IMG/VR virus record: IMGVR_UViG_3300050120_000258
Location: 1 to 21,386 of that record
Length of the DNA: 21,386 nucleotides
Direction: 5' to 3' (one strand)
DNA from: a virus
This document shows, piece by piece, positions 1,058-17,003 of this stretch. Position 1 is the first letter of the stretch. Every line of letters starts with the position of its first letter. Made by a program: the position numbers and the translations under genes. Below the pieces are notes generated by a model. It searched no databases and was not told the DNA's origin. It was given only the letters and a program-made list of their open reading frames with translations.

Positions 1058-1402
1058 ATGAACCTTAAACCCGCCATTCTCGCAGCCGCGCTGCTTTGCT
1101 CGTCTGCTGCGATGGCTGACAGCGGCATCCGGCGCGTGCCGTGCGGCTATCTTCAGGTCACAGTGACCACCGTACAGTCTCTGACCATCCCGGCGGCATG
1201 CGGCAGCAACCCGACGCTGGCTGTGATCAGGGCGGAGGCTCAAGCGGTGCGGTATCGCGATGATGGTGTCGCACCGACGGCCACCGTCGGACAGCCGATC
1301 GCGGTGACCGATGCTCCGATCGCATATAAGGGCATAATCTCGGCGCTACAATTCATCGCCCAGGTGTCCGGCGGCATCGTGGATGTTCTGCTGTACAAAT
1401 GA
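1058..1402 (+). CDS. Small tail-module protein with N-terminal signal peptide
   Basis: This 114-residue protein begins MNLKPAILAAALLCSSAAMA|DS, a textbook Sec signal peptide: a positive start, a hydrophobic core and an AMA cleavage site. The ATG at 1058 is preferred over the one at 1046 because GGGA lies 6 nt upstream and the signal then begins correctly. The mature part (about 94 residues) resembles the short beta-rich proteins often encoded between head-completion and neck genes, with segments such as AVIRAEAQAVRYRDDG, APTATVG and ALQFIAQVSGG. In those relatives the segment GYLQ... is near the N-terminus with no signal. It is probably a minor structural or decoration protein, but function is not proven. 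The stop overlaps the next start (ATGA), so the two are translationally coupled. It is the first gene of the rightward operon. Confidence 0.8.
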   Translation: MNLKPAILAAALLCSSAAMADSGIRRVPCGYLQVTVTTVQSLTIPAACGSNPTLAVIRAEAQAVRYRDDGVAPTATVGQPIAVTDAPIAYKGIISALQFIAQVSGGIVDVLLYK

Positions 1403-2115
1403 CCCCTTCGATCACCGAGACGACGATCACCGACGCGCTCGGCAACTTCCTGACTGCAATCCTCTCACTCCCCGCCAGCAACATCATCGTTGGCCAGGTC
1501 AACCGCGTCGCGTCACCCGAGGGCGATTACTGTGTTATGTGGCCGCTGCGCCGCCCTCGCCTTTCGACTAATGTCGATACCTCGGCGGATGCCAAGTTCA
1601 CCGGATCGATCGCCGGAACCGTGATGACGATCACGACGGTGTTGACCGGCGAGATGAATGTCGGAGCTACGGTGTTCGGCGTCGGGGTTGCGGCCAACAC
1701 GATTGTATCGGAGCAGCTCACCGGCACGCCAGGCGGCGCCGGCACGTACACCGTTGGGCCGTCACAAACCATCGGCCCGATAACGCTATCGGCGGGACAG
1801 ACCGAAATCGAGCAGTCGACGGAAGTCGTCTATCAGATCGACGTGCACGGAAATTCGAGCGGGAATAATTCGCAGACCATCGCGACGTTGTTTAGGGATG
1901 CCTATGGTGTCTCGCTGTTCGCGGGCACCGGAGTGACGCCGCTTTACTGCGATGAGCCCAGACAGATGCCGTTCACGACGGCGGCGGATCAGTTTGAGAG
2001 CCGCTGGATGATAGACGTGCATATGCAGGTGGATCCTGTTCTGAGCGTGCCTACCCAATTCGCCGATCAAGCCAATGTCACCGTCGTCGACGTGACCGAA
2101 GCCTTCCCCGCCTAA
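1399..2115 (+). CDS. Phage neck/tail terminator protein (gp12-like, LIC_12616 type) with inserted repeat module
   Basis: This 238-residue protein is a probable tail terminator or neck protein that joins tail to head. The N-terminal part (TITDALGNFLTAIL... then the conserved-looking WPLRRPRLSTNVDT around residues 54-67) and the C-terminal part (STEVVYQIDVHG, then FRDAYGVSLF, LYCDEPRQMPF and SRWMIDVHMQV) match the architecture of the neck terminator family encoded just before DUF3383 sheath genes. Between them, residues about 67-132 form an extra Gly/Thr-rich beta module (FTGSIAGT...GTPGGAGTYTV) that recurs in the sheath and baseplate J. It sits where a short loop is expected. The start overlaps the upstream stop by 4 nt, and the sheath gene follows after 18 nt. 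The family assignment rests on motif memory and gene order. Confidence 0.78.
   Translation: MTPSITETTITDALGNFLTAILSLPASNIIVGQVNRVASPEGDYCVMWPLRRPRLSTNVDTSADAKFTGSIAGTVMTITTVLTGEMNVGATVFGVGVAANTIVSEQLTGTPGGAGTYTVGPSQTIGPITLSAGQTEIEQSTEVVYQIDVHGNSSGNNSQTIATLFRDAYGVSLFAGTGVTPLYCDEPRQMPFTTAADQFESRWMIDVHMQVDPVLSVPTQFADQANVTVVDVTEAFPA
1597..1794 (+). repeat. Reiterated virion module, copy 1 (in neck terminator)
   Basis: Encodes residues about 67-132 with the pattern FTGSIAGT, then a hydrophobic strand, VGATVFGVGVAANTIVSEQ, GTPGGAGTYTV and a final hydrophobic strand. The same pattern is found in five further places in this window. At DNA level it shares acgattgtatcg with copy 6. Confidence 0.8.
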
Positions 2116-2133
2116 ATCAAAGGACAAACCGAG

Positions 2134-4134
2134 ATGACCATCCCGGCTTCATATTCGGTCGAGAGTTCGCCCTCGGTGATCTCCGCCGGCGGCAACGCGC
2201 TCGACCTCAACGGCTTGTGCTTGACCGATACGCAGCGGGTACCGATCGGGCAGATCTTGTCGTTTCCGAGCGCGGCGGCCGTGGCCTCCTATTTCGGTGC
2301 GGCGTCCAAAGAAGCGATCATCGCGGGCGGTGGCCAGACGCTTGCAGGCAATCCGGCCGGCACCGGCTATTTCGGCGGCTACAAGAATGCCACCGCGGTA
2401 CCGGGCGCGCTGCTGTTCGCCACCTACCCCGAGGTTGCCGTTGCGGCCTACCTGCGCGGCGGCAACATCTCCGCCCTGACGCTGGCGGCGCTGCAGGCCC
2501 TGTCCGGCTCGCTTACCGTGGTGATGGACGGCTATGCCCACGTCATCAGCACGATCAGCCTTGCGACTGACAATAGCTTCTCAGCGGCGGCGGCATCGAT
2601 CCAGGCGGCCTTTACGGACCCAACCGAATCCAGCTTTACCGGCTCGCTTGGCGCATCATTTACCGCCTCTGCCGGCAGCCCGACCACGAAACTGGTTGTG
2701 ACCGCTGTCACTGGGCTGATTTCTGTGGGCGATACTGCCATCGGTACCGGAATTCCCACTGGGACAACCATTATCTCTCAGGATACCGGCGGGACGCCCG
2801 GCGGCGCCGGAACTTATAATCTGAGTGCTGCCAATACGGCGTCCGCGGCTTCCTGCACCTCGACCAGCACCGTGCTTGACGTGACCGTCGACACCGATAT
2901 CACGATCGCGGTCGGCCAGACCTTGAGCGGCATCAGCATCACGGGCTCGCCGCTGATCACGGCCCAGATCGCGGGAACTCCGGGCAGCACCGGCACCTAT
3001 CGCATCAGCGGCGCGCAGCAGCACGTCGTTTCGGAAGCCATGACCGGCGTCGCTACGGCTCCGACCGTGACCTATGACTCGGTCTCCGGCTCCTTTGTCA
3101 TCACGTCCGGCATCACCGGTGCAGCATCGACCGCAGCTTTCGCCACCGGCACGCTGGCGGCTTCCTTGCTGCTGACCTCGGCCACCGGTGCCGTACTGTC
3201 CCAAGGTGCGGCTGCGGCTGTGCCGGCAACCTTCATGGCCGGTATCATCGCGCAAACCACGAATTGGGCGAGCTTCTTCACGTCATTCGATCCGGATGGC
3301 GGCAGCGGCAACACCCAGAAGCTGGCGTTCGCGGCTTGGAACAACAGTGTGGCACCGCGCTACGTCTATCTCGGATGGGATACCGACCTCACGCCGGGCC
3401 AGAGCGTGCCGGCGGCCTCAAGCCTCGGCTATGAAGTCACGACAACGCTTGGCTATTCGGGAACGGTACCGCTCTATGAACCGACCGATTTCAATCATGC
3501 GGCGTTCCTGTCAGGCGCGATCGCAGCCATCAATTTCAACAAAGCCGGCGGCCGCGTCTCGTTCGCCTATCTCACGCAACCCGGGCTGGCCGCTTCCGTC
3601 ACCGACATCACCACCGCGGTGAACCTCGGCGGCAATCCGCAGGCTCTCGGCTCCTTCGGCAACGGTTACAACTTCGTCGGCGCCTTCGCGACGGCCAATC
3701 AGGGCTTCGTCAATTACCAGCGCGGTACCATTTCCGGCCCCTACAAATGGCTGGACAGCTATGTCAACCAGATCTGGCTGACTAACCAGTTCCAACTCGC
3801 CGCCTATGAGTACATGACGCAGGTCGGCGCCTTTCCATATACACCGGCAGGCTACGCGAATTTCGAAATCGCGATGCAGGATGTCATCCAGGCCGGGCTC
3901 TCGTTCGGGGCCTATTCGGCGGGCGTCACGTTATCGTCCACGGAAATCACCGAGATCAACACCGCGGCCGGCGCCAACATCTCCAGCACATTGCAGACGC
4001 AGGGTTGGTATCTGCAGGTCAAGGACCCCGGTGCCACGGTGCGCGCATCGCGCGGATCGCCGGTTATTACGTTCTTTTACGTAGACTCTGGCAGTGTGCA
4101 GGCGCTCAACATCGGCTCGGTCGCCGCTCAGTAA
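2134..4134 (+). CDS. DUF3383-family contractile tail sheath protein, enlarged by two inserted modules
   Basis: This 666-residue protein polymerises around the tail tube and contracts during infection. The N-terminal region (SVISAGGNALDLNGLCLT..., FPSAAAVASYFGAAS, ...GYFGGYKNAT) and the C-terminal half (WASFFTSFDP, FAAWNN, RYVYLGWDTD, YNFVGAFATANQGFVNYQRG, KWLDSYVNQIWL) follow the DUF3383 pattern. Known members are usually around 450-500 residues. The excess is explained by two tandem Gly/Thr-rich modules at residues about 168-242 and 243-309. AAAGGA lies 5' of the ATG at a normal distance. The gene lies between the neck terminator and the tail tube, the expected order. Several long open frames on the other strand here are shadows produced by its high G+C content. 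Confidence 0.9.
   Translation: MTIPASYSVESSPSVISAGGNALDLNGLCLTDTQRVPIGQILSFPSAAAVASYFGAASKEAIIAGGGQTLAGNPAGTGYFGGYKNATAVPGALLFATYPEVAVAAYLRGGNISALTLAALQALSGSLTVVMDGYAHVISTISLATDNSFSAAAASIQAAFTDPTESSFTGSLGASFTASAGSPTTKLVVTAVTGLISVGDTAIGTGIPTGTTIISQDTGGTPGGAGTYNLSAANTASAASCTSTSTVLDVTVDTDITIAVGQTLSGISITGSPLITAQIAGTPGSTGTYRISGAQQHVVSEAMTGVATAPTVTYDSVSGSFVITSGITGAASTAAFATGTLAASLLLTSATGAVLSQGAAAAVPATFMAGIIAQTTNWASFFTSFDPDGGSGNTQKLAFAAWNNSVAPRYVYLGWDTDLTPGQSVPAASSLGYEVTTTLGYSGTVPLYEPTDFNHAAFLSGAIAAINFNKAGGRVSFAYLTQPGLAASVTDITTAVNLGGNPQALGSFGNGYNFVGAFATANQGFVNYQRGTISGPYKWLDSYVNQIWLTNQFQLAAYEYMTQVGAFPYTPAGYANFEIAMQDVIQAGLSFGAYSAGVTLSSTEITEINTAAGANISSTLQTQGWYLQVKDPGATVRASRGSPVITFFYVDSGSVQALNIGSVAAQ
2635..2860 (+). 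repeat. Reiterated virion module, copy 2 (in sheath)
   Basis: Sheath residues about 168-242: FTGSLGASF, LVVTAVTGLISVGDTAIGTG, GTTIISQDTGG, GTPGGAGTYNLS. It is the closest relative by eye of copy 6 in baseplate J ([33 protein letters not shown]). Confidence 0.8.
2861..3060 (+). repeat. Reiterated virion module, copy 3 (in sheath)
   Basis: Sheath residues about 243-309, directly following copy 2: VLDVTVDTDITIAVGQTLSG, then GTPGSTGTYRIS and VVSEAMTG. It is more divergent but keeps the strand/turn order; the ending VVSEAMT matches VASEAMT in copy 4. Confidence 0.7.
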
Positions 4135-4164
4135 CCCAGCCGCCAATTCGAAGGGGCCAGCCAC

Positions 4165-4590
4165 ATGTCGATAACTGCCGCGAATGCTGTTATTCAACTT
4201 TCAATCGCGACGATCTTCCCAACGCCGCAGCAAATACAAGGCTTTGCGGAAGGTGATGTCTTCGACGCGACCAGCGTCAAGATCAACGAAGTGCAGATGG
4301 GCGTCGACGGACAGCAGTCCGCCGGCTTCGTCTGGGTTTCGAAGCCGATCACGTTTCATCTTCTGGCGGATTCCGAGTCGAACGACGTGTTCGATGAGTG
4401 GGGATCGCAGATGGAGGCCAACCAGACCGTTTTTCTGGCGAGCGGCCTTATCGTGCTCGACACCGGCGCGAAGTGGACGATGAGCCGAGGATCTTTTACC
4501 GATTGGCTGTGGATACCTCCCGCGAAGAAGCTCCTGATGCCGCGTTCGCACACCGTCACGTTCGGTAGAATCATCAAGTCGGTGGCCTGA
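4165..4590 (+). CDS. Phage tail tube protein
   Basis: This 141-residue protein begins MSITAANAVIQLSI and contains the segments FAEGDVFDATSVKINEVQMGVDGQ, PITFHLLADSES and MSRGSFTDW...PPAKKLL. This is the pattern of the short tail tube (structural) proteins that follow DUF3383 sheath genes in contractile phages. It would form the inner tube through which DNA passes. AAGGGG lies 8 nt upstream of the ATG. Its stop overlaps the next start by one base (TGATG). The location between sheath and chaperone strongly supports the call. Confidence 0.83.
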   Translation: MSITAANAVIQLSIATIFPTPQQIQGFAEGDVFDATSVKINEVQMGVDGQQSAGFVWVSKPITFHLLADSESNDVFDEWGSQMEANQTVFLASGLIVLDTGAKWTMSRGSFTDWLWIPPAKKLLMPRSHTVTFGRIIKSVA

Positions 4591-5030
4591 TGGCGAGGAA
4601 AGAAGTTTCAGTAACGATAGTCGATGAAGGTCGCGACCAAGGAAAAGTATTCCGATTAACGGAAAAGTCCGCGATCGATATCGACAAGTGGGCCAACCGC
4701 GCCATTCATTCCATTGTTCGTGCCGGTGGCGTGTTGCCGGACGAAATCCAGAAAATGGGGATCATCGGCATCCTAGCCGTCGGCATGCATCGGCTGATGC
4801 ATATCCCGTGGTTGGAGCTCGAACCTCTGCTCGATGAACTTCTGACATGCGTCCAGATCGTACCGACACCAAGCCAGCCCAACGTGGTCCGCAAGCTGTT
4901 CCCCAACGATATCGAGGAAGTCAGCACGCTGCGCACACTACGCGAACAAGTTTTCGTCCTGCATACTTCTTTTATTCTGCCCGTCGACGCATCGAAATCC
5001 CCCGGCGCGGCGGCGGGCACCATCTCCTAG
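4590..5030 (+). CDS. Tail assembly chaperone, zero-frame product
   Basis: This 146-residue protein contains VFRLTEKSAIDIDKWANRAI, a helical middle (GIIGILAVGMHRLMHIPWLELEPLLDELL cut here by family style) and a C-terminal part LREQVFVLHTSF. It occupies the chaperone slot between tail tube and tape measure, where such proteins bind the tape measure before tube polymerisation. The last residues (GAAAGTIS) are low complexity. The frame one base back stays open through the stop and ends in an ATGA overlap with the tape measure gene. As in lambda G/GT, this protein is therefore probably also made in a longer form by -1 frameshifting. Confidence 0.8.
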   Translation: MARKEVSVTIVDEGRDQGKVFRLTEKSAIDIDKWANRAIHSIVRAGGVLPDEIQKMGIIGILAVGMHRLMHIPWLELEPLLDELLTCVQIVPTPSQPNVVRKLFPNDIEEVSTLRTLREQVFVLHTSFILPVDASKSPGAAAGTIS

Positions 5031-5182
5031 AGTATTCGAACATCACGCCGGCGATCGGTGCGGTCATTTCGAGCCGTCTCGCGACGATGGCTGATCTGTC
5101 GACGGTGCTGTCGATCGAGGACGTCTATGTCCTCCTCGAGATCGCGGCGGTGGATGCGTATAATTCGAGGCCGCAGAAATGA
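5000..5182 (+). CDS. Frame -1 extension of tail assembly chaperone (GT-like part)
   Basis: In the frame -1 to the chaperone, the sequence is open across the chaperone stop (tag at 5028-5030 read as cta gag) and encodes a convincing helical tail: ITPAIGAVISSRLATMADL, then SIEDVYVLLEIAAVDAYNS. It stops at 5180-5182, overlapping the tape measure ATG by 4 nt, as a real upstream gene would. The only internal ATG (5088) would give just 31 residues and has no good ribosome site, so fusion by frameshifting is the better model. The most plausible slip point is the C5 run at 4999-5003 (codon CCC re-pairs with CCC). No canonical X XXY YYZ heptamer is present, so the exact site is uncertain and the start given here is approximate. 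Confidence 0.6.
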   Translation, partial: PRRGGGHHLLEYSNITPAIGAVISSRLATMADLSTVLSIEDVYVLLEIAAVDAYNSRPQK

Positions 5183-6696
5183 CTACGATAGATGAACTTG
5201 TCGTAACGCTCGCGTTGGATCCAACCAAGTTCACCAAAGGTCAAAAAGACGCGCTCGACACCTTCAAAAAAACCGACGACGAATTCACCAAGCGCCTCAA
5301 AAACCTCGAGGACCAGAACAAGAAGGCTGGTGAGTCCTTCGGCAACATCACGCACGCCGCGGAAGGCCTCTTTTCGGTGATCGCCGGCGCCGGCATGGCG
5401 TCGTTCGCGCGCGACACCATGACCAGCGTAGCTTCAACTGGGCGCCTGGCGCACAACATCGGTGAGGCCACCGGCGAGCTTTCCGCATTCGGCCGCATGA
5501 TCGAGCGCAACGGCGGAAACGCTGATGCAGCGATGGGCTCGCTGAAGGGCTTCTCGGACCAGATCACGCGGCTCAACACGCTCGGCCAGGGCTCGCAAGA
5601 CCTGTTCATGTTTCTCGGCACGATCGGCGCCCGCGAAGGGGCCGGTCCGCTCGAAACCTTCATGAAGTTCGCCGAATGGGCGGAAAGTCACAAGGAAAAC
5701 CCGCAGCTCGTCAACCTGATTGGCTCACAAGGCGGTTTCGACCAGGGCACCATCAACGAGGCCATGAAAGGCCGCGTGCAGGTTCTCAAGGATCTCGCGG
5801 CGGCGAGCAAGGGTGCGATCGGCCCCGAACAGGTCGAGGCCCTGACGAAGCTGCAAGGTGCCTGGGTCGGTCTCGACCAGGCGCTTGAGAAGACCGGACG
5901 AGACATCGTCACCGACGTTGCTCCGGCGCTGACATCGATGGCGACTGCCACAACGGAACTAATCGAGAAAAACCAGAAGTGGGCTGACATACTTGGCGAA
6001 GTGCTGGCCGCCATCACCGCCCTTACCGCGCTGAAGCCCGCGGCGTGGCTCCTGAGGCTGCTTGGACTGGGCGGTGCCGCTAGCGCAATTAGCGCGGCAG
6101 GACCGCTGGCTGTGGCTGGCGGCCTCGCCTATGCCAATCTACCGACGACGCTCGGTTCGGAGCCCAATATCTATGAAAACGGCCAACTGACCGACTACGG
6201 CCGCAAGATCACCGGCCAGGGCGGCGGCGCTTTCGGCAGCCCGCAGGAAAAAGAGGCCTTCATCCGCGCCTCGGCCATCAAAGCCGGGATCAACCCCGAT
6301 ATCGCCATGGCAGTGGCCAAGAGCGAGGGATTTAACAAGTTCTCCGGTGACAACGATACCTCGTTCGGTGCCTTCCAGCTTCATGTCACGCCAGGCGGCC
6401 GCGGTCACGCCGTCGGCGACGAATTCCAGAAACTGACCGGCCTCGATCCTTCCGATCCCGGCAATGAACATGAAGGCATCATGTTCGCGATGGAGTGGGC
6501 GAAACGTCACGGCTGGCACGATTTCCATGGTGCGGCCAACAGCGGCATTGGCGACCAGCAAGGTATCGGCGATGTCACCGTCGTCGTTCACACCGACTCC
6601 AAGGACCCCCGCGAGCACGGCCGGGTCGCTGCCGACGCCTTCAAGAACCGGGTCAATAGCTCGATCGCGACACAGGCCAACACCGGATTGAACTGA
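5179..6696 (+). CDS. Tail tape measure protein with C-terminal SLT-like (transglycosylase) domain
   Basis: This 505-residue protein has an N-terminal segment DELVVTLALDPTKFTKGQKDAL followed by a long coiled-coil region, both typical of tape measure proteins. A Gly/Ala-rich hydrophobic stretch (about residues 285-315) may be membrane-interacting. Residues about 360-455 form a lysozyme/SLT-like domain: INPDIAMAVAKSEG with presumptive catalytic Glu383, then DNDTSFGAFQLHV, VGDEFQKLTGLDPSDP and FAMEWAKRHGW. The domain would locally open peptidoglycan during DNA injection. The protein is short for a tape measure, which predicts a short contractile tail. The start overlaps the chaperone -1 frame by 4 nt, and the stop overlaps the next start by 1 nt. 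Confidence 0.9.
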   Translation: MTTIDELVVTLALDPTKFTKGQKDALDTFKKTDDEFTKRLKNLEDQNKKAGESFGNITHAAEGLFSVIAGAGMASFARDTMTSVASTGRLAHNIGEATGELSAFGRMIERNGGNADAAMGSLKGFSDQITRLNTLGQGSQDLFMFLGTIGAREGAGPLETFMKFAEWAESHKENPQLVNLIGSQGGFDQGTINEAMKGRVQVLKDLAAASKGAIGPEQVEALTKLQGAWVGLDQALEKTGRDIVTDVAPALTSMATATTELIEKNQKWADILGEVLAAITALTALKPAAWLLRLLGLGGAASAISAAGPLAVAGGLAYANLPTTLGSEPNIYENGQLTDYGRKITGQGGGAFGSPQEKEAFIRASAIKAGINPDIAMAVAKSEGFNKFSGDNDTSFGAFQLHVTPGGRGHAVGDEFQKLTGLDPSDPGNEHEGIMFAMEWAKRHGWHDFHGAANSGIGDQQGIGDVTVVVHTDSKDPREHGRVAADAFKNRVNSSIATQANTGLN

Positions 6697-7271
6697 TGGC
6701 TGATGGACTTCCCGACCTGCCCATTGGCGTGAATGTTTTCACCGACGCCGTGCTGCTGGTCGCCGACGCCGTTTCGCTGTTCTCCGGTGCGACACAGCAA
6801 TGGGGCATCTTCCTTGACGGCGAGCCGGTGGTGGTGGCCGACAACGTCGTCGCGTTCGGTTTCAAGAAGTCGGCGCGCATCTCGAAGTATCCGCAGGAAC
6901 AAGGTGCCTTTGCCAGCTACAACAAGGTTTCGCTACCCGGCGAACCACGGCTGAAGTTCTCGACCGGCGGTTCGGTTGCCGACCGGCAGGCCTTCATCGA
7001 CTCGATCGCGCCGTTGATCGACGATCTCAACCTCTATGATGTCGTGACACCGGAAGTGACCTATTCCGGCTACAACGTCGTCAATTACGATTATCCGCGC
7101 ACCGCCGACAAGGCTGGCCTGATCACGGTCGACGTCTGGCTCGAGGAAGTCATCATCGCCGGCGCTTCGGAATTCAGCAACACGGCTTCTCCGACCGATT
7201 CCAGCCAGACCAACAACGGCCTGGTGCAACCGCAGCCATATTCGGGCGCCAATCTCGGCCCGCTTCAGTAA
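6696..7271 (+). CDS. Tail/baseplate protein (Dit-like position), DUF3383-phage type
   Basis: This 191-residue protein starts at an ATG overlapping the tape measure stop (TGATG). It contains VVAFGFKKSARISKYPQEQG, AFASYNKVSLPG, LNLYDVVTPEVTYSGYNV and ITVDVWLEEV. The segments match by recall a tail protein regularly placed directly after the tape measure in this phage group, thought to connect tube and baseplate. The C-terminal 35 residues are Ser/Gln/Pro-rich and probably flexible. I do not recognise a catalytic motif. Context supports a structural role; the exact name is uncertain. Confidence 0.72.
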   Translation: MADGLPDLPIGVNVFTDAVLLVADAVSLFSGATQQWGIFLDGEPVVVADNVVAFGFKKSARISKYPQEQGAFASYNKVSLPGEPRLKFSTGGSVADRQAFIDSIAPLIDDLNLYDVVTPEVTYSGYNVVNYDYPRTADKAGLITVDVWLEEVIIAGASEFSNTASPTDSSQTNNGLVQPQPYSGANLGPLQ

Positions 7272-7280
7272 GGGCGAGCC

Positions 7281-7610
7281 ATGCAAGTCGTCCCGCTGCA
7301 GCCGGTACCGAACCAGACGCTGCAGATCGTGCTCGCCAGCCAGAATTGCCAGATCAATGTCTACCAGGCACCTGGCGGGATGTTCATGGATCTTCTCGTC
7401 AATGACGAGCCGGTGCGGCTTGGCATCCCATGCCAGAATTTGAACCGGGTCGTTCGATCGCTCTATCTCGGATTTTCTGGCGACATGGTCTGGAACGATA
7501 CCCAGCCTGATCCGGTGCTAGGCGCGCAAGATCCATTCTATAGCGGGCTCGGATCGCGGTTTCAGCTTGTCTATCTCGCGGCATCGGACCTGCCGGCGAA
7601 CGAGGGCTGA
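7281..7610 (+). CDS. Baseplate plug protein, DUF6983-like
   Basis: This 109-residue protein contains VVPLQPVPNQTLQIVLASQ, NCQINVYQ, GMFMDLLVND, IPCQNLNRVVRS, YLGFSGDMVWNDTQ and SRFQLVYLAASDL. These match the small DUF6983 baseplate plug family that closes the tail tube near the hub. AAGGG sits 6 nt before the ATG. It is encoded between the Dit-like protein and the hub, as expected. The length is normal for the family. Confidence 0.8.
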   Translation: MQVVPLQPVPNQTLQIVLASQNCQINVYQAPGGMFMDLLVNDEPVRLGIPCQNLNRVVRSLYLGFSGDMVWNDTQPDPVLGAQDPFYSGLGSRFQLVYLAASDLPANEG

Positions 7611-7612
7611 TC

Positions 7613-8494
7613 GTGAGTTTTGTCAAACGCGCTCTCGACTTCACTTTCCAACTCGGCACCGGCTCGTTCGGCGACACCGGCGCCAACACCGTCAAGGTGC
7701 CTTCCGGTCTATGGGCCACGGCTCAAATCCAGAAGAACGGCACGCCCTCGATGAACCGGGCGAATATCCGGATTTGGGGCCTGTCGCTCACGATCATGAA
7801 CCAGCTTTCGCGGATCGGTGTATTGCCGACCGCGGTACGCAACAACATCGTCACCGTCATGGCAGGCGAGGCCGGCGGCAACATGTCGCTCGCCTTTGCC
7901 GGCGGCATCCAGGAGTGCTGGCCGGACTTCTCCAATCCGACCGAGGCTGTTCTCAACGTCAACGCCTTCACCGGCTTGCTGGCGCAGATGAAAACTGCGC
8001 TGCCGACGAGCTTCAACGGCTCGACCGATGTCGCCACCATCATGGGCCAGCTCGCCAAGCAGATGGGCTACACGCTGGAGAACAATGGCGTATCGGTGCA
8101 ACTCTCCAACCCGTATCTTCCTGGCACCGCGCGCATGCAGGCACTGGCCGCGGCCGACGCCGCCGGAATCTATGTGGTGTTCGACGACGATAATGGTGTC
8201 ATGGCGATCCTTCCGAAGACCGGCGCCCGAGGCGGTGCGGCGCCAGTGATTTCACCGACCGGCGACATGGTCGGATACCCAACCTATGTCGGCCCCGGCC
8301 AGATCGCTCTCACCGACGAATATAATCCGCAGCTCCGCTTCATGGGCAATGTCATCGTGAAGAATTCGATCGTCGGCGGTGCCAATGGCACCTGGCGCAT
8401 CACGAGTCTATCGCACGATCTATCGACGCGGCCTGATGGTCCGTGGTTCTCGCATGTCCAGGGTAACAACCTCTACTCGGCGCAAGGCGCATGA
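7613..8494 (+). CDS. Baseplate hub protein
   Basis: This 293-residue protein starts at a GTG two bases after the previous stop. Segments RANIRIWGLSLTIMNQL, AGGIQECWPDF, VATIMGQLAKQMGY and GVSVQLSNPYLPGTARMQAL fit the gp27/gpD-like hub proteins of contractile phages, which carry the spike and connect it to the tube. It lies directly before the spike gene, and its stop overlaps that gene's start (ATGA). The assignment is by gene order and motif style; no enzymatic motif is visible. Confidence 0.78.
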   Translation: MSFVKRALDFTFQLGTGSFGDTGANTVKVPSGLWATAQIQKNGTPSMNRANIRIWGLSLTIMNQLSRIGVLPTAVRNNIVTVMAGEAGGNMSLAFAGGIQECWPDFSNPTEAVLNVNAFTGLLAQMKTALPTSFNGSTDVATIMGQLAKQMGYTLENNGVSVQLSNPYLPGTARMQALAAADAAGIYVVFDDDNGVMAILPKTGARGGAAPVISPTGDMVGYPTYVGPGQIALTDEYNPQLRFMGNVIVKNSIVGGANGTWRITSLSHDLSTRPDGPWFSHVQGNNLYSAQGA

Positions 8495-9099
8495 ACGACG
8501 TCACCTCCGACGGCTATACCGGTCGCGCCAATGAAACCACGGGTGCCGACGAGTTCAACGCGCAGACATTTCTGATCAACCAGGTTCTCAGCGGCAAGTG
8601 GACGGTCACGCTTTGTGTTGTCAAAAGTGTTTCTGGCGGCGGCGTCAACGTCCCGCCGATCGTCAGCGTCCAGCCGCTAGTCAACCAGGTCGACGGCCAA
8701 GGAACTCCGACACCGCATGGCATCATCAACGGTATTCCGGTTTTTCGTCTGCAGGGCGGCACCAACGCTATCATCGTCGATCCTGTTGCCGGCGACATCG
8801 GGCTTCTGGCAACCGCAAGCCGTGACATATCGGCGGTCAAGAACAACAAGGCGCCGTCGAATCCCGGTTCGCAGCGGGTGTTCGATGCGGCGGACAGTCT
8901 CTATCTCGGCGGCTTCCTCAATGCCGCACCGACGCAATACGTCCAGTTCAGCGAAGCCGGTATTACGCTGAAGTCCGGATCTGCCACGATCGTTGTCGGC
9001 AGCGACGGCACCGTTAAAATCAACGGCATCGACTTCAGCACGCACGTCCATACCCTGGTGCAAACCGGCGGTTCCGATAGCGGCCCACCGCTCGTTTGA
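8491..9099 (+). CDS. Gp138-type membrane-puncturing spike with HxH tip motif
   Basis: This 202-residue protein has an OB-fold-like N-terminal part (NVPPIVSVQPLVNQVDGQG, IINGIPVFRLQGG, DIGLLATASRDISAVK) characteristic of the Gp138 N-terminal domain. It is followed by short beta repeats (SATIVVGSDGTVKINGIDFS) typical of a trimeric beta-helix. Near the C-terminus, His185 and His187 form an HxH motif. In P2 gpV-type spikes this motif coordinates a metal ion at the apex, using six histidines from three chains. The tail TGGSDSGPPLV matches usual spike ends. It would sit at the tip of the tube and pierce the outer membrane. Confidence 0.88.
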   Translation: MNDVTSDGYTGRANETTGADEFNAQTFLINQVLSGKWTVTLCVVKSVSGGGVNVPPIVSVQPLVNQVDGQGTPTPHGIINGIPVFRLQGGTNAIIVDPVAGDIGLLATASRDISAVKNNKAPSNPGSQRVFDAADSLYLGGFLNAAPTQYVQFSEAGITLKSGSATIVVGSDGTVKINGIDFSTHVHTLVQTGGSDSGPPLV

Positions 9100-9127
9100 G
9101 ACAACGATAAAATATTAAGGGGCGGCG

Positions 9128-9580
9128 ATGGCATCTAATTCCACGCTGCTGCTTGATAGTTTGAGTTGGGATTGGGCTGTCGACGCCAACGGCAATTTCG
9201 CGGTAGCGGGTCCGCCCTACTCTCAAGCGCAGGATGCGGCCTCGGCAATCCGGCTCTATCTTGGCGAACTCTATTATGACACTTCCGCGGGCGTGCCCTA
9301 CGCGCGCATTCTGGCGCAGCCGCCGAACGTGCCACTGCTAAAATCGTACATGGTCGCCGCTGCTCTGACGGTACCTGGCGTCGTCTCCGCAGTTTGCTTC
9401 ATCACCTCGGTAACCGATCGCGGTGTCACCGGCCAGGTGCAGATCACAAACGCGGCTGGCCAAACCGCGGCGGCCTCGATCGCGCCATTCGTGCCGCCGT
9501 TGCCGCCGTTACCGCCTTCCGGCGGACCGTCGCTGGATTATTCGGATCCGAACAATTCGCAATACCTGCCGGGTCTGTAA
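9128..9580 (+). CDS. Baseplate wedge protein, gp25/W-like
   Basis: This 150-residue protein contains SWDWAVDANGNFAVAGPPYSQAQDAASAIRLYLGELYYD split over residues 13-52, GVPYARILAQPP and AALTVPGVVSAVCF. This is the pattern of gp25/DUF2634-like wedge proteins encoded immediately before baseplate J. Residues about 120-133 are a proline-rich linker (PFVPPLPPLPPSGGP) not needed for that fold. AAGGGG lies 5 nt upstream of the ATG, and the following gene starts at the base after the stop. The function is sheath initiation and wedge assembly by family knowledge. Confidence 0.8.
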   Translation: MASNSTLLLDSLSWDWAVDANGNFAVAGPPYSQAQDAASAIRLYLGELYYDTSAGVPYARILAQPPNVPLLKSYMVAAALTVPGVVSAVCFITSVTDRGVTGQVQITNAAGQTAAASIAPFVPPLPPLPPSGGPSLDYSDPNNSQYLPGL

Positions 9581-11449
9581 ATGACGAATGTGCCTCAGGT
9601 CTCGTTCGGCTCGACCGGCTTTCAGGCGCCAAGCACCACGCAGGTATTGACCGGCGTCATCGCCGATATCCAGGCCGCGTTCAGCGGCAAGCTCAATCTA
9701 TCGATCACCAATCTGGCGTCGCTGGGAACATCGCAGGGTCAGCTTGCCACCAGCATGACGGGATCGATCGTCAACGCCAACAATGCGTTTTTGGTGCAGG
9801 CCAGTCAGACCGATCCGGCCTATGCGTTCGGCCGCTGGCAGGATGCCATCGGCAACATCTATTTCCTGCAACGCAATGCTTCGGAGCCGACGGCGCTCCA
9901 GATCGCGTGCAACGGTGCACAGGGCGTCAATATTCCGGTTGGCGCCAGTGTCATCGACGGCACCGGCAACATCTATCTGGCGACACAAGCAGGTTTGATC
10001 CCGGTTGGCGGCAGCATCACGCTGGCCTTCGCGGCCTTCATTCCCGGCCCGGTGGCGGTTCCGGCCACGGTCGCGCCCTATCAGACCATCCCGGGCTGGG
10101 ACAGCGCAACCGTAGTCTCCGGAGCGATTGGTCGCAACGTCGAAAGCCGCGCCGCGTTCGAGCAGCGGAGACAGGACAGCGTCGCCGGCAACAGCTTCGG
10201 CCCGATCGGGGCGATCATCGGTGCAGTCGCCAAGGTTCCGGGCGTCCTCGATTATTACGGGTTCAACAATAACACGGCCAATCCAGTCACCATCAACGGG
10301 GTGACGATCGCGGCGAACGCGATCTATATCTGTGTCGCCGGCGGTGCACCCTCCGACATCGCCCAAGCCATTCTGTCAAAAAAGGGCGCCGGCGCGCCGA
10401 TGACCGGCAACACCACGGTCACCGCGTTCGACAGCAATCCGCTCTATGCGTCACCGCAGCCCTATACCATCACTTACGAAATACCGGCCGCACTCCAGCT
10501 GCTGTTCAAGGTGGTCATAGCCAACGGGCCTCTGGTGCCCTCCAATGCCGCGCAACAGGTTCAGAGCGCGCTCCTGGCAGCGTTCGCCGGAGACAGCCTG
10601 TCGGCCAGCTTTACCGGCTCGATCTCCGGCACCACGCTTACGGTCACCGCGGTGGACTCCGGAACAATTGCGATCGGCCAGCTGCTTTCCGACCTCACCG
10701 GCGGCGTCACGGCTGGCACCGCCATCACCGGGCTCGGCACGGGCTCTGGCGGGCTCGGCACCTATTCGATCAGCCTGTCGCAGACTGTCGCCAGCGAGGC
10801 CATGACCTCGGAATCGCCGGCTGCCGTCAACAGTGTGCCGCGGGCACGGATCAATTCGTTGGTCTATGCCATCCAGTACGTTCCGGCGATTGCCGCACTT
10901 GGTTCATGGGCCCAGGTCGCGTCCATCCTGATCGGCTCCATCAATTCTCCGGATGCCGTGGTCGAGGGGCATATCGTCGGAAACACGCTGACGGTCACCT
11001 CGGTCACATCGGGCATCATCCTGCTCGTCGACACACTGTTAGATCCGGCCGGGCTGATCGCGAACGGAACGGTCATCACGGCCTTTGTCAGCGGATCCGG
11101 AGGCACGGGCACCTACACGGTAAACAATCCGCAGACGATCGGTGCCTCATTTACCGGATCCGGATCGGGCATAAACATGGCCGTTACGGCGGTCACCGGC
11201 GTCATCGCGGTGGGTGACGTCGTTGTCGGAGCCGGCGTCCCAGGTGGAACGACGATTGTATCGCAGACCAGCGGGACACCGGGCGGTGCCGGCGTCTATG
11301 TGACGAGCGGTGCCACGACAGCAGCTACCGCTGCGCTGACCTCCAACAAGGCGATCACCTGCGCGTCCGCGGATAATTCCTCGGTGCAGGTGAATGCCAA
11401 CCAGGTGCCACAGCTCACCGCGACGAATATTTTGGTGAGCACAACGTGA
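9581..11449 (+). CDS. Baseplate J-like protein, enlarged by three inserted modules
   Basis: This 622-residue protein is the wedge component that links hub to fibres. The J core spans residues 1-340: [73 protein letters not shown]. It continues around 413-460 with [14 protein letters not shown] and [11 protein letters not shown]. Into this are placed Gly/Thr-rich modules at about 344-412, 461-522 and 523-590. The usual J length of roughly 350-480 residues is restored if the modules are removed. The ending [21 protein letters not shown] is normal for J. The stop overlaps the next GTG start (GTGA). Confidence 0.9.
10610..10815 (+). repeat. Reiterated virion module, copy 4 (in baseplate J)
   Basis: J residues about 344-412: [57 protein letters not shown]. 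By eye this is the copy closest to the consensus. Confidence 0.85.
10961..11149 (+). repeat. Reiterated virion module, copy 5 (in baseplate J)
   Basis: J residues about 461-523: [55 protein letters not shown]. It is directly followed by copy 6. Confidence 0.82.
11150..11349 (+). repeat. Reiterated virion module, copy 6 (in baseplate J)
   Basis: J residues about 524-590: [49 protein letters not shown] and a terminal Ala/Thr strand. It shares acgattgtatcg with copy 1 in the neck gene. Confidence 0.82.
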
Positions 11450-16097: not shown

Positions 16098-17003
16098 ATG
16101 GCAAACCTCATTGCTCTGCAAGAAGCTAACGGTAAGCGATGGAAGATTGCAAAACTGACAGGACGTTTGCCAGTCGATGCGACGACTCAACGGCTGTTTT
16201 CAAACAAGGCGCGCTATCTCAAGATCGTGCATATGTTGCAGGCACTCGGATCGAACATGCCAGACGAGGCATGGGTGTTCATCGCAGTGACGCACGAGCG
16301 CGAGAGCGGCGGCAACTTCAACACTCATTTGGGGCAAGGTGATCCCCTCACCGACCGGCACGGCAATCCGATCAAGACCGTGCATGTTCCGGCGGGGCGC
16401 GGGCCATTCACCGGGCCAGAGGCGTTCGAAAATGCAGCAGTAGATGCCCTCTGGTACTGCGCGCCATATGCGGCTAAGAACAACAAGGACTGGTCAATCT
16501 CCGGCATGCTCACCTACGATGAGCGGTTCAATGGTCTTGCCTACGCCAATGTCGGCAGGCCGAGCCCCTATGTCTGGTCAGACACCACGGTCTATGATCC
16601 GCCGACTGGCCCTGGCGGCAAGGTGCTGGTCGATCATGGGCCGATCACCTCGACCGTGGACAAGCAGATCGGGGTCGCCGCGCTGTATCTCAAGATCGAC
16701 GCGCTGGATGACACGATCAATTTCGGCGAGATGCCGGACGCGCCATTGCAACCAACATTACCGGAGCCCGACAAGATTCCGGTGGCCGACGTTTACGATG
16801 CCGTTTGGCTCCAAGCATCATTGAATCGTCTCGGCGCGACCCCGCCGCTTACTGTGGACGGCATCAACGGTGCAGCCACGCGAACCGCGGTGCGCGCATT
16901 CCAGACAAGCAAGGGGCTAACGGTGGACGGCAGGGTTGGTCCGTTGACCATCGACGCGATCAAACAGGCTGTTGCCGAGATCAGTGCAGCGCCCGTCACA
17001 TGA
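16098..17003 (+). CDS. Endolysin: lysozyme-like domain plus C-terminal PG_binding_1 domain
   Basis: This 301-residue protein releases progeny by cutting peptidoglycan. Residues about 35-205 form an N-terminal lysozyme-type domain: WVFIAVTHERES (Glu67 or Glu69 as likely catalytic acid), NTHLGQGDPL, VPAGRGPFTGPEAF, CAPYAAKNNKDWS, MLTYDERFNGLAYA and PSPYVWSDT. Residues about 230-292 form a peptidoglycan-binding type 1 domain: WLQASLNRLGATPPLTVDG, TAVRAFQTSKGLTVDG, VGPLTIDAI. There is no signal peptide, so export needs the holin functions encoded downstream. AGAGGA lies 8 nt before the ATG. The stop overlaps the next start (ATGA). The N-terminal family assignment comes from recalled phage endolysins of Alphaproteobacteria. 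Confidence 0.88.
   Translation: MANLIALQEANGKRWKIAKLTGRLPVDATTQRLFSNKARYLKIVHMLQALGSNMPDEAWVFIAVTHERESGGNFNTHLGQGDPLTDRHGNPIKTVHVPAGRGPFTGPEAFENAAVDALWYCAPYAAKNNKDWSISGMLTYDERFNGLAYANVGRPSPYVWSDTTVYDPPTGPGGKVLVDHGPITSTVDKQIGVAALYLKIDALDDTINFGEMPDAPLQPTLPEPDKIPVADVYDAVWLQASLNRLGATPPLTVDGINGAATRTAVRAFQTSKGLTVDGRVGPLTIDAIKQAVAEISAAPVT

Follow-up and report, generated by a model that had tools for sequence, protein, structure and literature searches.

We analysed a complete IMG/VR virus record (IMGVR_UViG_3300050120_000258; 21,386 bases, hereafter the window), which spans the tail and lysis region of a contractile phage (a Bcep781/E217-like myovirus). The gene order matches that of Pantoea phage PA-1, namely terminator, sheath, tube, chaperone, tape measure, hub, spike, wedge, J, DUF2612 and fibres. 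A single segment of about 65 residues, which we refer to as the module, is found six times in frame in three of the encoded virion proteins: once in the terminator, twice in tandem in the sheath and three times in the baseplate protein J. The three host proteins and the six copies are the following:

1399..2115, plus strand: tail (neck) terminator, 238 amino acids, one module; Pfam PF23961 at E 4e-25 in two stretches flanking the insert, and NCBIfam NF047498.
2134..4134, plus strand: tail sheath (DUF3383), 666 amino acids, two tandem modules; PF11863 at E 2e-96, and Foldseek matches to E217 gp31, Pa193 gp32 and the XM1 sheath.
9581..11449, plus strand: baseplate J (wedge subunit), 622 amino acids, three modules; phrog_6 at E 2e-32, with XM1 gp16 and 9ndy wedge protein 2 as homologues.
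1591..1794, plus strand: module N1 in the terminator, between ...RLSTNVDT and GQTEIEQSTEVVYQIDVHG; hidden Markov model (HMM) match at E 3e-27, borders from the module-free L022, PA-1 and 2_D05.
2650..2862, plus strand: module S1 in the sheath; HMM match and sheath alignment A2.
2839..3048, plus strand: module S2 in the sheath, with a linking strand common to S1; HMM match and continuous model strand 239-253.
10601..10810, plus strand: module J1 in J, between ALLAAFAGD and VPRARINS; HMM match, confident AlphaFold model, borders against module-free J.
10952..11161, plus strand: module J2 in J; HMM match and borders, the site being filled in most J homologues.
11141..11344, plus strand: module J3 in J, in tandem with J2; HMM match and borders.

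The core profiles around the inserts match the DUF3383 sheath, the PF23961 terminator and baseplate J, which are therefore the host proteins. A profile built from the six copies recovers each of them (E 3e-27 to 2e-64), and the other copies are 40-48% identical to the first; together these values exclude chance similarity. Reading of the sequence and the six-copy profile thus bear out the initial annotation, which had described six in-frame copies of one pattern distributed in this way. Two of its details had to be revised. The first sheath copy was placed at 2635, where the encoded FTGSLG belongs instead to the preceding linker; according to module-bearing homologues, the module starts at about 2650 (GASFTAS...), some 15 bases later. 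Moreover, the FTGSI strand of the original pattern is missing from the second sheath copy. The HMM matches of the tandem pairs overlap, at 2839-2862 in the sheath and at 11141-11161 in J, and in the sheath model a single strand (residues 239-253) spans both S1 and S2. The second sheath copy has no FTGSI strand of its own because tandem modules share one, the last strand of one module being the first of the next.

The terminator, sheath and J of PA-1 are 183, 492 and 410 residues long, against 238, 666 and 622 in the window, and nearly all of this difference consists of modules, which therefore account for the excess length as first proposed. Homologues without the module give clean borders. 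In the sheaths of L013, L021 and L022, the helix ...IQAAFTSP continues directly into the strand PFAVTYDSVSGAF; the terminators of PA-1, 2_D05 and L022 have a short loop at the position of the window's module; J of PA-1 has AVLSSFNGEDGGTRARIGS at the J1 position, and J of both PA-1 and phiAO1 is without J2 and J3 near the C terminus. In all three comparisons the module-free homologues keep intact cores, in agreement with reiterated beta-modules inserted into otherwise normal family members. GC (guanine plus cytosine) content and third-position GC are alike in modules and cores, so that composition does not mark the modules as foreign. That every homologue has the segments as a native part of its family's core is a reading with a vanishingly small chance: the J2 site is filled in most of the relatives fetched and a module occurs in 26 of the 26 terminators with both core halves recognised (a biased sample), but it is absent from PA-1, phiAO1, 2_D05, L022 and L023, as well as from the sheaths of L013, L021, L134 and others.

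Structure prediction, which had been suggested as a check, returned a compact and confident fold. The AlphaFold model of J1 with 78 copies reached a predicted local distance difference test score (pLDDT) of 95.9 and a predicted template modelling score (pTM) of 0.82, and it is all beta, with long strands at both ends. In the sheath model, the pLDDT was about 80-94 around the insert, with a poor C-terminal core and an overall mean of 70.8. Foldseek found no relative of the fold in the PDB, the best probability being 0.25, mostly for beta-barrels of F1-ATPases and endosialidases, and a profile search with the module gave no match among PDB sequences. Compared with Pfam, the 78 modules matched neither a recurring family nor any carbohydrate-binding family; one stray hit to Big_6 (E 0.35) falls short of an immunoglobulin (Ig)-family profile. 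We found no account of the module in the literature, subscription journals being outside our coverage.

Relatives of the fold were found in BFVD, in which 15 viral proteins matched at E <0.001, with a root-mean-square deviation (rmsd) of mostly 0.6-1.4 Å over about 68 residues and approximately 40-60% identity. They include a major capsid protein of HK97 type, a P22 gp10-like protein, a fibre resembling lambda Stf, a protein with an intramolecular chaperone, a pectate-lyase-type protein and, from the giant virus Indivirus, a collagen-like protein. In Indivirus ILV1, a giant virus of eukaryotes, two collagen-like proteins (A0A1V0SCQ2 and A0A1V0SDM6) have the same fold, with an rmsd of 1.2-2.3 Å and 36-43% identity.

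Glycine, serine and threonine make up 47% of the module and charges are few; over the 78 copies, Asp+Glu amount to 2.8%, Asp+Glu+Lys+Arg to 3.6% and Trp to 0.2%. Conserved positions are confined to Gly21, Gly26, Gly48, Gly50, Gly53, Tyr55 and small hydrophobics, and no conserved polar, acidic or aromatic surface patch was seen among these copies. Such a composition might point to convergence, that is, to low-complexity Gly/Thr/Ser-rich beta sequences with no homology among the copies. Given the profile E-values, the near-invariant glycines and tyrosine at fixed positions, and the close superposition and identity found in unrelated viral proteins, we consider this extremely improbable.

The consensus of the module served as the query for scans of other genomes, profile A3 being too diverse for that purpose; these scans rest on exact 8-residue seeds, and their counts are therefore lower bounds. 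The consensus matched at least 404 IMG/VR stretches but, across 84,980 genomes of cellular organisms, only 24 loci. A tblastn search of 50,697 cultured phages with single and triple modules returned nothing even at E 10, which we do not read as absence since the query was probably masked as low-complexity, even chance matches being missing. A local tblastn control with SEG still recovers hundreds of module copies.

That the three host proteins are unrelated, as the initial annotation stated, holds for the window, and relatives add further proteins to the list. Their capsid cement protein (PF22758/PF23982) bears one to three copies placed after its core, and the head protein phrog_1912 also carries the module. 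It occurs in the adaptor Ad3 and the head closure Hc3 of another phage group, in a T7-like tail tubular protein, and in tail fibres and spikes. In 27 of 28 viral records there are 2-12 copies per record. Three terminators (L117:6995-7936, L119:6502-7452 and L123:8669-9694) have a second module in an N-terminal extension in addition to the one at the usual site. Cultured hosts exist, since L117 is a prophage of Rhizobium freirei PRF 81 and L119 comes from a genome of the Rhizobiales. Another prophage, in Paraburkholderia panacisoli DCY113 (L131/L134), bears the module in its terminator and J and has a module-free sheath.

One origin initially proposed for the copies was duplication within the genome; in its recent form, a single cassette would have been copied from neck to sheath to baseplate in the history of this phage. 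The occurrence of the same family in three genes of one record is in line with this, as is the fact that S1 and J3 form one subtype with 60% amino-acid identity. However, S1 and J3 share only 34% of third positions. The window copies are 25-60% identical to one another in amino acids, 42-62% in nucleotides and 26-58% at third codon positions, against the 42-84% amino-acid identity of same-site copies in the close relatives L026-L028; at the DNA level too, paralogues within the genome are not closer than same-site copies elsewhere. Of 232 modules from 70 loci and eight host-protein classes, 171 are closest to a module that another genome carries in a protein of the same class, and not one is closest to a module of its own genome (0 of 53 in another comparison). 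On the module tree, which is noisy as the sequences are short, the host-protein label changes 50 times, a figure not to be taken as a count of transfers, compared with 135-153 times in shuffles; the genome label changes 212 times (200-215 in shuffles) and hence does not cluster. Since protein labels cluster and genome labels do not, the sites are inherited rather than refilled within a genome, and we regard recent duplication as very unlikely. An ancient duplication in the ancestor of the clade is possible.

The same insertion sites are filled across the clade. Among 44 sheaths, the sheath site holds zero to four copies, with at least eight copy-number changes against a mean of 18 (15 or more) in shuffles. 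Judged by their sequences, the modules are old residents with a varying tandem number. Two pairs cross protein boundaries: one joins a module from the head region of L015 with one from the sheath of L008 (81% amino-acid, 75% nucleotide and 57% third-position identity), the other a module from the sheath of L037 with one from J of L026 (74% amino-acid and 76% nucleotide identity). Modules have thus occasionally been transferred between protein families in the past.

With regard to the position on the virion, residues 147-158 of E217 gp31 and Pa193 gp32 correspond to the site of the sheath insert, which thus falls within the flexible extra domain of Pa193 gp32 (residues 91-210; PMC11042391). Sheath domains of this additional kind, many of them Ig-like, are located away from the tube (PMC9230969), and an outward-facing position of the sheath modules is plausible. 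The inserts in the terminator and J replace or extend loops. Assuming the 204 sheath subunits of the E217 tail (PMC10329688) and the 12 J subunits of XM1 (PMC10457771), a tail would bear in the order of 450 module copies.

The explanation we favour, and consider likely as a whole, is that all six segments belong to a single family of promiscuous accessory beta-modules, which decorates surface loops of tailed-phage virion proteins. Each copy is predicted to form a compact domain with its termini on the long strands that open and close it, and the copies sit in frame within loops of the terminator, the extra domain of the sheath and the J wedge protein. The insertion sites are passed on along the phage lineage while tandem number varies, and past moves have carried modules from one protein family to another. 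The subunits may then display the modules outward, several hundred per tail at an E217/XM1-like stoichiometry. Along the lines put forward for phage Ig-like domains, the resulting neutral Gly/Thr/Ser-rich coat could make weak multivalent contacts with polymers of the host surface or matrix and/or shield and stiffen the particle. The part of this explanation that concerns fold and origin is highly probable, and a role in surface decoration is probable as well; that the coat acts by weak adhesion rather than by shielding or stabilisation is a tentative suggestion drawn from the analogy with phage Ig-like domains.

The initial annotation had also raised selection for a shared binding surface along the tail. 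A lectin-like family with one conserved ligand-binding surface common along the virion would agree with the presence of the module over fibres, spikes and exterior proteins, and with the analogy to phage Ig-like domains. Conservation gives this no support: because it is limited to glycines, Tyr55 and small hydrophobics, and charges and tryptophan are so few, no single shared ligand site is indicated. Conserved polar, acidic or aromatic surface positions are missing from the 78 copies, and neither the carbohydrate-binding families of Pfam nor the folds of the PDB were matched, so that we find a lectin-like family quite improbable.

Structural reinforcement is a serious rival. According to it, the modules bind nothing; they would instead link adjacent subunits of the sheath or wedge and so lend stability to the tail or capsid. 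Additional sheath domains have indeed been proposed to cement the tail (PMC9230969), the conserved residues are structural only, and capsid cement proteins bear the module too. On the other hand, the same sheath site holds from zero to four copies in proteins whose cores are otherwise ordinary, which implies that no fixed geometry is needed. We therefore see reinforcement as possible, if on balance unlikely.

Several further points weigh against the explanation of the modules as accessory surface decoration. Adhesion is argued by analogy only, since no ligand site emerges from the conservation. A structural part is possible for some copies, because the J sites map to domain III of XM1 gp16, which contacts the neighbouring wedge (PMC10457771). 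The apparent prevalence is biased, many loci having been retrieved with the module itself as query. Finally, a few module-bearing open reading frames (ORFs) resemble giant bacterial surface-type proteins, such as that of L125; the family is thus mainly, and not strictly, viral, and the module may also belong to bacterial surface proteins. The L125 ORF, in Synechococcus lacustris (L125:2451-15092), is 4214 residues long and has three modules besides the FG-GAP repeats.

A broader proposal may be put forward, albeit tentatively. The module would represent a new widespread beta-domain family, without an entry in Pfam or the PDB, that serves as a standard plug-in for surface loops. Phages of different tail types would have inserted it time and again into proteins of the capsid, connector, sheath, baseplate and fibres (giant viruses, for example Indivirus, and certain giant surface proteins of bacteria possibly being further cases), so that the whole particle would be covered by a neutral coat of uniform chemistry. 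The occurrence of one module in loops of three tail proteins of this uncultured phage, and in neck, capsid and fibre proteins of relatives, suggests that many environmental phages dress the particle exterior with a single accessory module that is interchangeable. For this unnamed domain, which more than 400 stretches of environmental viruses carry, a profile and a confident model are now given, and the role of virion accessory domains becomes directly testable, as one lineage offers zero to four copies at one site. The module also calls for caution in annotation, since its presence is enough to give unrelated virion proteins an apparent resemblance; it is because of the module that proteins of the window are linked to the 'tail fiber' PHROG 38233.

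Other features of the window and its relatives are recorded here. After the tube gene, the ORF at 4590-5030 overlaps another at 4847-5182 in a different frame, at the position of the tail assembly chaperone pair, and a programmed frameshift upstream of the tape measure gene is possible (4590-5182). The tape measure protein (5179-6696) is short, with 505 amino acids; it has a match in phrog_2013 'lytic tail protein', and a domain that degrades the cell wall may form its C-terminal part. An endolysin-like ORF lies at 16098-17003 and shows, by eye, a terminal peptidoglycan-binding-like repeat (VDGINGAATRTAVRAFQ). The N-terminal part of the sheath has a Gly-rich insertion (IAGGGQTLAGNPAGTG; 2314-2370), found in its full form only in the closest relatives L026-L028. 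In Acetobacter phage phiAO1, a catalase-annotated gene lies on the opposite strand in the middle of the tail gene cluster (L139:8180-10303).

Several known systems resemble the module in part. The tandem BACON-domain repeats of crAss-like phages (PMC6949934) are also copy-variable beta modules in a phage protein, presumably of a different family, and belong to a different phage group. PHROG 21413 and PHROG 38233 (tail fiber protein) contain segments homologous to the module (about 395-470 and 550-630, respectively), but these are whole-protein clusters without a named domain, in which neither the module nor its spread is described. The insertion or additional domains of sheaths (XM1 gp6 InD, E217 gp31 domain A and the Pa193 gp32 flexible domain) are likewise extra domains away from the tube, whereas the module is itself inserted within such a domain, at residues 147-158 of E217, and is found again in other proteins. 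Phage Ig-like domains are small beta domains in virion surface proteins of diverse phages, for which weak binding to host-surface carbohydrates has been proposed (Fraser et al. 2006, J Mol Biol 359:496, as cited in PMC9230969). They too are appended to or inserted in surface proteins, exchanged between genes and phages, and absent in relatives. Unlike them, the module has about 65 residues, is Gly/Thr/Ser-rich and nearly uncharged, and occurs together in the terminator, sheath and J of one phage. The likeness to Ig-like decorations noted initially therefore stands for the role and not for the fold, as Ig (Fab) chains in the PDB were matched by Foldseek with a probability of only 0.02-0.03 and a TM-score (TMq) of 0.22-0.29, and Pfam agrees. 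On the best reading, the module is kin in behaviour to the phage Ig-like accessory domains, its nearest known kind, with a different fold.
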